A stretch of 64,000 bases of DNA. It comes from Acidobacteriota bacterium (GTDB taxonomy: Bacteria > Acidobacteriota > Vicinamibacteria > Vicinamibacterales > 2-12-FULL-66-21). Each line of letters starts with the position of its first letter. The first letter of the stretch is position 1. The position numbers and the translations under genes are program-made. The DNA lies in the NCBI GenBank assembly GCA_016184105.1, contig JACPDI010000011.1, positions 1 to 64,000 of the forward strand. The letters are read 5' to 3'. The notes beneath the pieces are model-generated. The model had not been told where the DNA came from and ran no database searches. It saw only the letters and a program-made list of their open reading frames with translations. Below, in pieces: positions 60,358 to 64,000 of the stretch.

Positions 60358-60433
60358 GGTGAGTGTAGCTCAGGGGTAGAGCGCCGGACTGTGGCTCCGG
60401 ATGTCGCGGGTTCAAATCCCGTCACTCACCCCA
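60358..60433 (+). tRNA. tRNA-His (GTG)
   Basis: Acceptor GTGAGTG (60359-60365) pairs with CACTCAC (60423-60429), with the additional G-1 (60358) opposite discriminator C73, the identity element of tRNA-His. D arm GCTC-AGGGGTA-GAGC, anticodon loop ACTGTGGC with GTG anticodon, T arm CGGG-TTCAAAT-CCCG and encoded CCA (60431-60433) are all present. Intact and of normal length. Confidence 0.97.
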
Positions 60434-60661
60434 TTCCCCTGCCGCGACCCGTTGCCGCATCGGTGGTGCGGCGACTCCCCTCTTCATCGCCAGCAGCACC
60501 AGCTCGAGCCGGCTTCGGGTTCCGGTTTTCGCGAAGATCCTCGTGAGCTGGTTCTTGACCGTCTGTTCGCGGGTGCCAAAGCGGCGGGCGATGTCCTTGT
60601 TGCGGCTGCCTTGAACGAGCAGAGCGACGATCTGCTGTTCCCTCTCCGTGAGATCTGTCAT
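60422..60661 (-). CDS. small LuxR-type helix-turn-helix protein
   Basis: 79 residues from ATG 60661 (MTDLTEREQQIVALLVQGSR; a longer start at 60679 exists). The HTH is the classical LuxR/GerE C-terminal domain ('LTEREQQIVALLVQGSRNKDIARRFGTREQTVKNQLTRIFAKTGTRSRLELVLLAM'). No receiver or ligand domain is attached, so it is a stand-alone DNA-binding module. Its stop codon lies antisense inside the 3' acceptor strand of tRNA-His (12-base overlap). Confidence 0.85.
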   Translation of the reverse strand: MTDLTEREQQIVALLVQGSRNKDIARRFGTREQTVKNQLTRIFAKTGTRSRLELVLLAMKRGVAAPPMRQRVAAGEWGE

Positions 60662-60733
60662 GCGTGGCCTCGCCGGCAATTTCGGCGAGGACCAACGTCA
60701 CACGCAAGCGTCAAGGCGCGCCATTCAACGCCA

Positions 60734-61603
60734 TCAGCCCCGCGCCCGCTTTCTTGCGCCGTTCTTCACTGTTCGCGTTCGTACCGTGGGCGCTTCCAGG
60801 CCCGCCTGCGCGGTCCTCTTCTTATTGGCGCTCACGCGGTCCAGGCTCTGACGAAGCGCGTCCATCAGGTTCACGACCTTCGGCGGGGCCTCCTCGGCCG
60901 TGGCCACCACGTCCTCCCCCGCGACTTTGGCCTCGATGATCCGCCGCAGCTCCGCCTGGTATTCGTCCTTGTACTCGCGCAGATCGAGCTTCGACTCGAA
61001 CGTGCCGATCACCTGCCGGGCGAGCTTGATCTCTTCCGGCTTCACCTTCGCGGGCACGGAGCCCAGCTCGTCGATCGCATCCATGCTGCGCACTTCATCC
61101 GCCGTCCGCAGCGTATACATCACGAGCCCTTTGTCCTTCGGCTGCACCGCGACGAGGTATTCGCGGCCGTAGAGGGCGAGCTTGCCGATCCCGGCCTTCC
61201 CTTTCATGCCCTCGCGGACCACGGCGAACGCCTCGGCGGCCATCGGGCCATCCGGCGCCAGGTAGTACGGCCGCTCGACATAAACCGGATCGATCTCTTC
61301 GGCGGTCGCAAACTGCAGCAGGTTGATGACGCGCGTGGATTCCGGCCGCGCCTTGGCGATGTCCTCCTCGTCCATCGTGACGTAGCGCCCCTTCTCGAAC
61401 TCGTAGCCCTTCACGATGTCCGACATCGGCACCTCGGCATCGCATGCCGGGCACCAGCGCTTCTGCTGGATCCGGTTCCCGCACGCGCGATGGAGCTGGT
61501 TGAAGGAGATCGTCGCCTTCGAGTCCGTCGCGGGAAACACGCGGACGGGGATGTTGACGAGGCTGATCTTGATGAAGCCTTTCCAGGTTGGTCTCGCGGC
61601 CAT
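60734..61603 (-). CDS. ku: Ku protein (non-homologous end joining)
   Basis: 289 residues from ATG 61603. The bacterial Ku core is clear: 'ARPTWKGFIKISLVNIPVRVF', 'ISFNQLHRACGNRIQQKRWCPACDAEVPMSDIVKGYEFEKG', 'YYLAPDGPMAAEAFAVVREGMKGK', then 'KLDLREYKDEYQAELRRIIEAKVAG'. A basic, Lys/Arg-rich tail ends the protein. It binds double-strand ends and recruits the divergent LigD. Usual length. Confidence 0.97.
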   Translation of the reverse strand: MAARPTWKGFIKISLVNIPVRVFPATDSKATISFNQLHRACGNRIQQKRWCPACDAEVPMSDIVKGYEFEKGRYVTMDEEDIAKARPESTRVINLLQFATAEEIDPVYVERPYYLAPDGPMAAEAFAVVREGMKGKAGIGKLALYGREYLVAVQPKDKGLVMYTLRTADEVRSMDAIDELGSVPAKVKPEEIKLARQVIGTFESKLDLREYKDEYQAELRRIIEAKVAGEDVVATAEEAPPKVVNLMDALRQSLDRVSANKKRTAQAGLEAPTVRTRTVKNGARKRARG

Positions 61604-61626
61604 GGTCCCACTATTATCGGACGGCC
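61604..61626. promoter_or_regulatory. 23-bp divergent promoter region shared by ku and ligD
   Basis: Only 23 bp separate the two start codons. The plus strand has TATTAT (61612-61617) and the minus strand GATAAT (61618-61613) over the same bases, so one AT-rich spot can serve as -10 in both directions. Predicted starts lie 0-4 bases from each ATG, so both mRNAs would be nearly leaderless. -35 boxes would lie inside the opposite genes (TTGGTC at 61588-61593 for ligD). Confidence 0.5.
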
Positions 61627-63672
61627 ATGCCGCGCGCGACACCCGCTGCACGAAAATGCACGCCGGCTGCGTACGCCCCGATGCTGGCGACGCTCGCCGA
61701 CGGCCCGCTGCAGGGCGACGGCTGGGTTTACGAGCCGAAGTACGACGGCATCCGAGCCATTGCCGAGCTGGATCCGCGGGGATCGGTGCGGCTCTGGTCG
61801 CGCCTCGGCAACGAAAAAACTACTCAATTCCCCGATATCGCTACAGCGCTCGCCCGTGTCGCGCGCGCGTTCGGGAAGCCGGTCGTGCTGGACGGCGAGA
61901 TCGTCGCGCTCGACGCGCGGGGGAATCCCGCGGGCTTTCAGAAGCTGCAGGGGCGGATCCACCTCATCGGCTCGACCGACATCGCCGGCGCCAGCGGCGC
62001 CGCGCCCACGGCGTTCATCGCGTTCGACATCCTGCGCGACGGCGCCACCGATCTGCGCCCCCTGCCCCTTGGCGAGCGGCGCGCGAAGCTCGAGGCACGG
62101 ATGATGCGACTCCGCGACGCTCGCGTGCGCATCAGCGAGCAGGCCGTTGGCGACGGCCGCGCGCTGTACGAGCGCGCGAGTAAAGAAGGATGGGAGGGAC
62201 TGATCGCGAAAGACGTCCGATCGCCGTACCAGAGCGGCCGCCGCAGCCCGGCCTGGCGCAAGCTCAAACTGGTCAAGCGCCAGGAGTTTGTCGTGGGCGG
62301 CTGGACCGAGCCGCGCCGGACGCGAACGCACTTCGGCGCGCTGCTGCTTGGCGTGTACGACGATGCCGGCGCGCTCCAGTACGTCGGGCACATGGGCACG
62401 GGGTTCGATCAGAAGGAGCTGGCGCGCGTCCATGCGCTGCTGAAGGCGCGCGAGACGCGCGAGTCGCCGTTCGCGGCGCGCGTGAAAACGAACGAGCCGG
62501 CGCACTGGGTGCGCCCGGACCTGGTCGCGGAGGTGAAGTTCAGCGAGTGGACGTCGGAGGGAAAGCTGCGGCACCCGGTGTACCTGGGGTTGAGGGATGA
62601 CAAGCGGGCGGAGGGGGTGGGGAGAGAGGGTTCGAGGGGTTCGAAGGGTTCGAGGGGTTCGAAGGGTTCGAAGGGTTCGAAGGGTTCGAGTTCGATCGTC
62701 GTGAACCTCTCGAACCTCTTGCTGGCACTTGAATCCTCCCGCGAGGACGGCACCGTCGAACTCCCGAACGGCGACCGCGTGGGTGTCACGAACCTGTCGA
62801 AAGTCTTCTGGCCGCAGGGGACGATCACCAAGGGGGAGCTGCTGCGCTACTACGTCGAGGTCTCGCCGTACCTGCTCCCCGCCGTGCAGGATCGCCCGCT
62901 CGTGATGAAACGGTTTCCGAACGGCATCGAGGGGCAGGCGTTCTATCAGCAGCAGCAGCGCCGCGAGCAGCCGCCGGCCGGCGTGCGAATCGAGGCATTG
63001 CCCGACGAGGTCGATCCGATCGGCGAGGCGGGCGCGCGGCGCTTCGTCGGCGGATCGCTCACGACGCTCCTGTACATGACGCAGATTGCCGCGATCTCGC
63101 AGGACCCGTGGTTCTCGCGCGTGCAGTCGCCGCTCGACGCCGATTACGCGGCCATCGATCTCGATCCGGCGGATGACGCGACGTTCGCGCGCGTCCTCGA
63201 CGTGGCGCGCTGGGTGCGCGACGAGTTGCAGCGGGTCGGGATCCCCGGCTATCCGAAGACGTCGGGCGCGAGCGGCCTGCACATCTACATCCCGCTGCCG
63301 CCGCACACGTCGTACGAATCCGGCCAGCTGCTCTGCCAGATCGTCGCCACAATGGTCGCGACGCGGCACCCGAAGGCCGCCACCGTCGAGCGCGCCGTCC
63401 GCGCGCGGCCGCGCGGGACCGTCTACGTCGATTACCTGCAGAACATCCTCGGCAAGACACTCGCGACCGCCTACAGCGCGCGCGCGAGCACCTTCGCCGG
63501 CGTCTCGACCCCGCTCGAATGGCGGGAGGTTGACGCCGGCGTCGACCCGCGCGACTTCACCGTGCGCACCGCGCCCGCCAGATTCAGGGAGAAGGGAGAC
63601 CTGTGGGCAGGACTCCGCACGGGGAAGCCCGCCGATCTCCACGCGGTGCTGAAGAAGTACGGCGGCCAGTGA
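61627..63672 (+). CDS. ligD: LigD: ATP-dependent DNA ligase fused to primase-polymerase domain
   Basis: 681 residues from ATG 61627. The ligase part (about 10-325) has the adenylation motif K38-YDG ('YEPKYDGIRAIAEL') and later 'EGLIAKDVRSPYQSGRRSPAWRKLK'. A repeat-rich linker (about 334-356) joins it to the archaeo-eukaryotic primase-like POL domain ('NGDRVGVTNLSKVFWPQGTITKGELLRYYVEV', metal ligands in 'DYAAIDLDPADD', 'GASGLHIYIPL'). Order is LIG-POL; the 3'-phosphoesterase (PE) domain is absent. It fills and seals ends bound by Ku. Confidence 0.96.
   Translation: MPRATPAARKCTPAAYAPMLATLADGPLQGDGWVYEPKYDGIRAIAELDPRGSVRLWSRLGNEKTTQFPDIATALARVARAFGKPVVLDGEIVALDARGNPAGFQKLQGRIHLIGSTDIAGASGAAPTAFIAFDILRDGATDLRPLPLGERRAKLEARMMRLRDARVRISEQAVGDGRALYERASKEGWEGLIAKDVRSPYQSGRRSPAWRKLKLVKRQEFVVGGWTEPRRTRTHFGALLLGVYDDAGALQYVGHMGTGFDQKELARVHALLKARETRESPFAARVKTNEPAHWVRPDLVAEVKFSEWTSEGKLRHPVYLGLRDDKRAEGVGREGSRGSKGSRGSKGSKGSKGSSSIVVNLSNLLLALESSREDGTVELPNGDRVGVTNLSKVFWPQGTITKGELLRYYVEVSPYLLPAVQDRPLVMKRFPNGIEGQAFYQQQQRREQPPAGVRIEALPDEVDPIGEAGARRFVGGSLTTLLYMTQIAAISQDPWFSRVQSPLDADYAAIDLDPADDATFARVLDVARWVRDELQRVGIPGYPKTSGASGLHIYIPLPPHTSYESGQLLCQIVATMVATRHPKAATVERAVRARPRGTVYVDYLQNILGKTLATAYSARASTFAGVSTPLEWREVDAGVDPRDFTVRTAPARFREKGDLWAGLRTGKPADLHAVLKKYGGQ
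62628..62690. repeat. nonanucleotide tandem repeat GGGTTCGA(A/G) x7 inside ligD
   Basis: Seven in-frame 9-bp units encode a (G-S-R/K)n flexible linker between the ligase and polymerase domains of LigD. Length changes by whole units keep the reading frame, so the linker can expand or contract without harm. Confidence 0.9.
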
Positions 63673-63773
63673 ATCCCGTCCGCCGAGAGAAGGTGGTCGA
63701 CGGCGGAGACGAGCCGCGTCGGCGTCAACGGGCTGCGGCAAGGGCAAACCGTGCCGCGGCGACAGCCTAATCT

Positions 63774-64000
63774 ATGATAGCGTTTTCCATCGGTGTCTCG
63801 GATCCGAGCGGCGTCGCCGAAGCGCGCCGGCTCGTACGGATGGTGGCCCACGACAGCGGCCTGTCGGAGACCGACGCCGGGCGCGCGGCGATCGTCGCCA
63901 CCGAAGCGGCCACCAACCTGGTGAAGCACGCGCCCGGCGGCGAGCTGATTGTCCGCGCGGGGGGGACGCCGCAGTTGCCCGTGCTCGACCTGCTGGCGGT
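63774..64000 (+). CDS. RsbT/RsbW-like ATP-binding anti-sigma regulatory protein (cut by window edge)
   Basis: ATG 63774 opens an uninterrupted frame of at least 75 codons: MIAFSIGVSDPSGVAEARRL, then 'MVAHDSGLSETDAGRAAIVATEAATNLVKHAPGGELIVR'. 'ATEAATNLVKHA' is the N box of the GHKL ATPase fold used by RsbT/RsbW-type partner-switching proteins. Such proteins regulate sigma factors or stressosomes by phosphorylating an STAS partner. The end lies beyond the window. Confidence 0.85.
   Translation, partial: MIAFSIGVSDPSGVAEARRLVRMVAHDSGLSETDAGRAAIVATEAATNLVKHAPGGELIVRAGGTPQLPVLDLLA

Follow-up and report, generated by a model that had tools for sequence, protein, structure and literature searches.

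How are ku and ligD, the two partner genes of non-homologous end joining (NHEJ), transcribed when they stand head to head with almost no room between them? The question is raised by the window, that is, the whole stretch of 64,000 nucleotides analysed here (positions 1 to 64,000 of contig JACPDI010000011.1, assembly GCA_016184105.1, from an Acidobacteriota bacterium of the order Vicinamibacterales; a draft assembly of 4.24 Mb in 69 contigs, 96% complete). An earlier note on this DNA had placed one bidirectional near-leaderless promoter between the two genes, with balanced expression of both built into it. We arrived at a different reading, which we regard as fairly probable: the gap holds a ku promoter, probably read by a sigma factor of the FliA/WhiG family, rather than a balanced two-way element, and ligD may use the back of its core. 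The genes and the element are as follows.

60734 to 61603, minus strand: ku, 289 amino acids, ATG at 61603-61601 (PF02735, 2.5e-45; TIGR02772, 4.7e-84).
61627 to 63672, plus strand: ligD, 681 amino acids from the ATG at 61627, with an alternative start ATG at 61681 (PF01068, PF04679, PF21686).
61604 to 61626: the gap between the two ATGs, 23 bp, exactly as the earlier note had it.
61613 to 61620, minus strand: the ku -10 element CCGATAAT, FliA/WhiG-like as judged from the conservation of CCGATA and from a core common to the promoters of a helix-turn-helix (HTH)-sigma locus described below.

Upstream sequences of ku were drawn from the family, from a public genome scan and from the order, where 101 of the 162 genomes gave 113 Ku matches between them; of these matches 90 entered the comparison (30 from the search itself and 60 retrieved afterwards). 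A start of ku could be assigned at 139 loci; one was dropped for Ns, and the other 138 represent 95 distinct upstreams. The compared sequences are related, and the counts are not those of independent trials. Searches of the family turned up no second species of this genus. On the ku strand, CCGATA was found within 100 nt in 64 of the 95 distinct upstreams, and on the opposite strand in 2/95; shuffled ku upstreams gave a mean of 2.0 and a maximum of 6 (200 shuffles). Only 6/290 genes of the same genome carried it, in a control sample of about a tenth of the genome whose starts were set by a simple codon-score caller favouring coding-like starts. Among distant Ku genes, CCGATA was present within 120 nt in 0/12, seven of these being from the same family. 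Thus, when the proposed shared core was set against conservation, the conserved bases were those of the ku-strand CCGATA and pointed in one direction. The distance from CCGATA to the ATG varied from 5 to 90 nt and was 5-15 nt in 30 of the 64, suggesting that ku is often, though not generally, near-leaderless; the longer leaders of four loci (L006, L010, L011 and L014) showed by eye a purine-rich stretch ahead of the ATG. The ku of one relative (L016, L017; G010:C141) is apparently split between two frames.

The conservation extends to the -35 position, at which the window carries the following feature.

61636 to 61641, minus strand: weak ku -35 region TGTCGC, its conserved T being 61641; with a ligD start at 61627 the region falls within ligD codons 4-5.

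A T stood 21 bp upstream of CCGATA in 43/64 aligned ku promoters, and TG occupied the same offset in 27/64, compared with 0-11 at other offsets. The combination of CCGATA with this upstream T suggested the flagellar/WhiG promoter class, whose consensus has TAAA at -35 and GCCGATAA at -10 (PMC8325347, PMC2859248; these and the other reports are cited from excerpts). At ku, CCGATAAT resembles this -10, and at the fixed distance of the -35 TAAA, where the T is conserved, the window reads TGTC.

A sigma factor of this family is encoded in the same genome (G000:C12:103508-104434; 194 bits against a cut-off of 189.6), and the FliA_WhiG model matched in 162/162 genomes, exceeding its cut-off in 142. 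The sigma gene follows a small excisionase/BldC-like HTH gene (102801-103022) with CTACAGG-N15-CCGATA upstream. The HTH protein passed the excisionase model (36.9 bits, cut-off 28.8) and matched the BldC family weakly (23.9 bits, cut-off 77); its gene was found in 123/162 genomes. We examined the promoters of the 30 best of 125 HTH matches. CCGATA was present on the gene strand within 180 nt upstream in 30/30 of these and on the other strand in 0/30, and CTA, which includes the conserved T, stood at one fixed distance from it in all 30. In 29/30 stretches, that of this genome among them, the sigma gene followed the HTH gene in the same orientation; the remaining stretch is too short to tell. 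Because the same core and spacing stand at this locus, a FliA/WhiG-type promoter is the most likely one for ku, as far as comparison of sequences can tell. Only 6 of the 30 HTH promoters read CCGATAA and 10 fit TRMA, so that the likeness between ku and sigma promoters is one of core and spacing and does not extend to every base. The joint occurrence of HTH and ku, which was viewed by eye, was not used as evidence, and several ku genomes are without the HTH gene. By eye, the wider locus (G000:C12:101308-105956) comprises an NtrC-like regulator, the BldC/excisionase-like HTH, a short kinase-like piece, the FliA/WhiG-family sigma and a hybrid kinase, and the neighbours of the sigma gene resemble two-component regulators.

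A matrix built solely from the 30 HTH promoters, with a threshold score of 10, was then applied to the other upstream sets. Scores of at least 10 were reached by 25/94 ku upstreams, 0/94 of their opposite strands and 1/94 shuffled sequences, and by 3/290 genes of the same genome. None of the 31 ligD upstreams reached this score.

Several observations weigh against a FliA/WhiG-type ku promoter and keep our confidence limited. Nearly a third of the ku upstreams (31/95) are without CCGATA within 100 nt, and the base after CCGATA is mostly A at ku (39/64) and mostly C in the sigma promoters (18/30). Most of the matrix signal was contributed by other families: of nine ku upstreams in the family of the window, two scored at least 10, and one of these two (L016) did so elsewhere than at its CCGATAAT. 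The window itself scored 7.7, which ranks fourth among 290 own-genome upstreams, behind three that have no CCGATA. Within the family of the window ku has a poor -35, and there the string TRMA-N17-CCGATAA gave 45 matches in 12 genomes (11 in the reversed control), none of them at ku. Seven of these matches lay just before the small HTH gene (in G001, G004, G006, G007, G008, G009 and G011). Since none was at ku and many lay inside open reading frames, the string alone is not specific. In two same-genus relatives (L215 and L216), TAAA-N17-CCGATAA stands 8 nt before the GTG of a small cysteine-containing protein, HNH-like by eye, which matched no Pfam family over cut-off; its gene is another candidate for control by this sigma.

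The opposite direction rests on the geometry of the gap. The heptamer TATTATC (61612-61618) is legible both ways, as the earlier note had pointed out, giving TATTAT on the plus strand (61612-61617) and GATAAT on the minus strand (61618-61613). Each matches TATAAT at 5/6 positions and ends 9 nt before its own ATG. The features that follow from this geometry are listed here.

61612 to 61617, plus strand: possible ligD -10 TATTAT, overlapping the ku -10.
61606, minus strand: predicted ku transcription start, with a 3-nt leader, placed from the geometry.
61624, plus strand: predicted ligD transcription start, with a 3-nt leader, placed likewise.

The base pairs 61613 and 61617 provide the -11A/-7T of ku and of ligD alike, and the predicted starts are 18 bp apart. 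A T at -18 is present in the ligD direction and absent in the ku direction. Symmetrical -10 bidirectional promoters are known from E. coli and Salmonella, where starts 18 bp apart are the commonest layout (PMC12825309, PMC10268837); they are defined by reciprocal -11A/-7T and starts about 18 bp apart, among divergent starts 7-25 bp apart. The window has the shared base pairs at the observed positions and this spacing between its predicted starts. Conservation of the core in both directions is absent from the published definition, and would be expected in relatives if shared use matters. The two-way layout says little by itself, because any ANNNT core has such symmetry. In the 290-gene sample TANNNT peaked at 6 nt before starts; the -10 hexamers of ku and ligD end 9 nt before the ATG, which predicts 3-nt leaders, and near-leaderless starts are plausible. 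A sigma-70 consensus scan of 61000-62300 found no promoter on either strand by its criteria, so that any -35 regions would be weak and lie within coding DNA, in line with the earlier note, which had put them there.

Of the alternatives, the one that survives best concerns the start of ligD: only ku may start in the gap, TATTAT being a chance occurrence and ligD starting at 61681 or being transcribed from upstream inside ku. We consider this possible, though clearly less probable than the reading we prefer. The ligD start codon is uncertain, since codons 2-18 score as non-coding (codon score -6.28; as low in 1.4% of 290 internal 17-codon segments and in 46% of upstream segments), and the codon-score start caller picks the ATG at 61681, giving a 77-bp gap. 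The N-terminal extension from 61627 also lacks a WREDP-like segment that many relatives have. Against a start at 61681, no Shine-Dalgarno or -10-like element was seen by eye directly before it, TATTAT stands at the usual ligD distance for this order, and 61681 is the Met of a conserved PMLA motif. The usual distance was taken from 31 divergent pairs (the window included) with a ligD match within 700 bp, 20 of which have TANNNT 6-10 nt before some in-frame ligD start, compared with 0-5 in the other five-nucleotide bins. The ku ATG and the PMLA Met are separated by 77 nt here, compared with 137-628 nt in the 30 other pairs. A near-leaderless ligD is thus the usual case in the order, although at a greater distance from ku, and in the relatives the two starts stand further apart than here.

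The base that completes TATTAT for ligD was present in 1/24 CCGATAAT promoters, the window's own. Apparently, ligD's own promoter and its WREDP-like N-terminus were lost in this lineage, and its frame now begins next to the -10 of ku. The non-coding look of codons 2-18 fits recent recruitment as well as a true start at 61681, and we lean weakly to recent recruitment. A core shared by ku and ligD would then be a derived possibility.

A second alternative keeps a promoter for ku and assigns it to the housekeeping sigma factor, GATAAT being an ordinary Pribnow box with a weak -35. The 5/6 match to TATAAT is in its favour, as are the poor FliA-type -35s at ku in the window's family, where lexA promoters look ordinary by eye (TTGACT-17-TATAGT). 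It is at odds with the pattern of conservation, as CCGATA, both C residues included, is more strongly conserved at ku than -7T (26/64), recurs with an invariant CTA at the sigma locus and is rare among the sampled genes. We therefore regard an ordinary housekeeping promoter as unlikely, although it retains some weight. In several relatives (L185-L193) lexA looks leaderless (TATAGT-N6-ATG), and this genome's lexA seems by eye to have a leader and a ribosome site.

The balanced model itself, in which one symmetrical near-leaderless promoter drives both genes and balances them, we hold to be improbable. It can point to the reciprocal -11A/-7T, the 18-bp start spacing, the -18T of ligD, the 9 nt on both sides and the usual near-leaderless ligD promoters of relatives (20/31). 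The ligD hexamer is complete only here, however, and the ku side resembles another promoter class. Moreover, in those E. coli bidirectional promoters that have been tested, strongly activating one direction can repress its opposite, while basal transcription is too low for competition (PMC12825309). Of the earlier proposal, a conserved promoter element in the gap is upheld for ku, with near-leaderless starts plausible; the shared core is unsupported as a conserved feature, and so is balance between ku and ligD, with a FliA/WhiG-like ku side and ligD upstreams that do not share it. A direct repeat that lies on the side of ku and within the ligD transcript as predicted also speaks against balance.

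61647 to 61661, minus strand: direct repeat GTGCA-N5-GTGCA, centred near -48 relative to the predicted start of ku and lying within the ligD coding sequence.

The exact repeat occurred within 150 nt in 10/95 ku upstreams; in the cases read, CCGATA lay 20-59 nt downstream of it, mostly 24-27 nt. In 12 family genomes the repeat followed by CGATA had four occurrences, 4/4 at ku. It seems to belong to ku, because at L013 and L015 it also stands before ku, and the stretches examined there showed no divergent ligD. Across the 162 genomes, repeat plus CCGATA gave 14 matches (3 in the control), seven at ku and seven not, although for one of the latter (L096) the contig ends. In L098 and L099, which are of one genus and have no listed Ku match, GTGCA-N5-GTGCA with CCGATAA stands before another gene. 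The 30 HTH-sigma promoters contained the repeat in 0/30. As a marker of a wide regulon the repeat was rejected, GTGCA-N5-GTGCA alone being found 6 times in this genome and 20 times in the control. The sigma-54 consensus is GG-N10-GC (-24/-12), and a sigma-54 reading of the repeat was rejected as well, since on reading it has a period of 10 and no GG. That repeat and CCGATA form one repressor operator, for example for LexA, is very improbable: the genome has a LexA and NHEJ genes are damage-related, but nine family lexA upstreams carry CCGATA in 0/9 and the repeat in 0/9, and the repeat-CCGATA distance is variable.

Returning to the FliA/WhiG-type ku promoter, we propose that the family sigma of this genome would read CCGATAAT and the weak -35 toward ku, its own gene lying downstream of a gene that appears to start with the same promoter type. 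A protein on the repeat at about -48 could compensate for the poor ku -35. By the symmetry of -10 elements, the ku -10 presents TATTAT on its reverse, 9 nt before the ligD ATG, and ligD might use this site with the housekeeping sigma. Two holoenzymes may be involved, because the ku side is FliA/WhiG-like and the ligD upstreams are not. If both directions are used, use by ku and by ligD would be mutually exclusive, and a factor on the repeat would occupy +24 to +38 of the ligD transcript; together these would make for antagonism rather than balance, although E. coli promoters of this kind show basal use too low for competition. The fullest version is a two-sigma toggle on eight base pairs, in which the FliA/WhiG-type sigma reads CCGATAAT to ku, the housekeeping sigma reads TATTAT to ligD, and a direct-repeat-binding protein at -48, perhaps the BldC-like HTH, recruits the first and blocks the ligD transcript. 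We put this forward as a speculative and rather doubtful extension.

Directly downstream of ku lies a gene for a LuxR/GerE-type HTH protein of 85 amino acids (60422-60679, minus strand). It was rejected as a conserved ku partner, since in 19 ku loci searched (some of duplicate species, some short) only its own locus matched. In the profile search Ku had a single match in the whole assembly; the LigD polymerase domain had one full match and a short second match on another contig. The Pfam domain order of LigD is ligase, then polymerase, and on reading the linker between them is Gly/Ser/Lys-rich and encoded by a tandem ggttcgaa-like repeat (62620-62700). No RNA family reached the gathering threshold in 60400-64000.

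If the FliA/WhiG-type reading is right, end-joining repair in a mostly uncultured Acidobacteriota order would be placed under a flagellar/sporulation-type sigma. It would name the regulator gene and the promoter, and predict when these bacteria make Ku. It would also caution against reading joint or balanced regulation into every symmetrical -10 that lies between two partner genes. Neither promoters with a symmetrical -10 nor FliA/WhiG promoters are new in themselves; in the open-licence literature we found no report on FliA/WhiG control of ku, nor on ku or ligD promoters of Acidobacteria.

Compared with the bidirectional promoters of E. coli and Salmonella, the window has the same shared core, reciprocal -11A/-7T and 18-bp spacing of predicted starts, but here only one direction is conserved, it is FliA/WhiG-like, and use of the opposite direction is a candidate. 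With FliA/WhiG promoters ku shares the CCGATA core and the -35 position, the best version standing at the sigma locus; it differs in that the target is a repair gene, the -35 is weak, and the elements are spaced one base wider than in the E. coli consensus TAAAGTTT-N11-GCCGATAA (PMC8325347, PMC2859248). The repeat at about -48 resembles the E. coli sigma-28 aer promoter, where the activator CRP is at -49.5 (PMC2859248). BldC is a small MerR-like HTH protein that binds AT-rich direct repeats (AATTXXXXC) head to tail (PMC5859096). The HTH protein at the sigma locus is of a similar small MerR-like type, but under the BldC cut-off, and the GTGCA repeats are not AT-rich and are missing from the HTH-sigma promoters. 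Among NHEJ genes, ykoU/ykoV of B. subtilis are under sigma-G (PMC5124664) and ku-ligD of Sphingopyxis belong to the general stress regulon (PMC7083833). In both reports ku and ligD are controlled together, whereas here ligD is without the motif; likewise, and in parallel to the spore-sigma control of Bacillus, ku would stand under an alternative sigma factor, one of another family.

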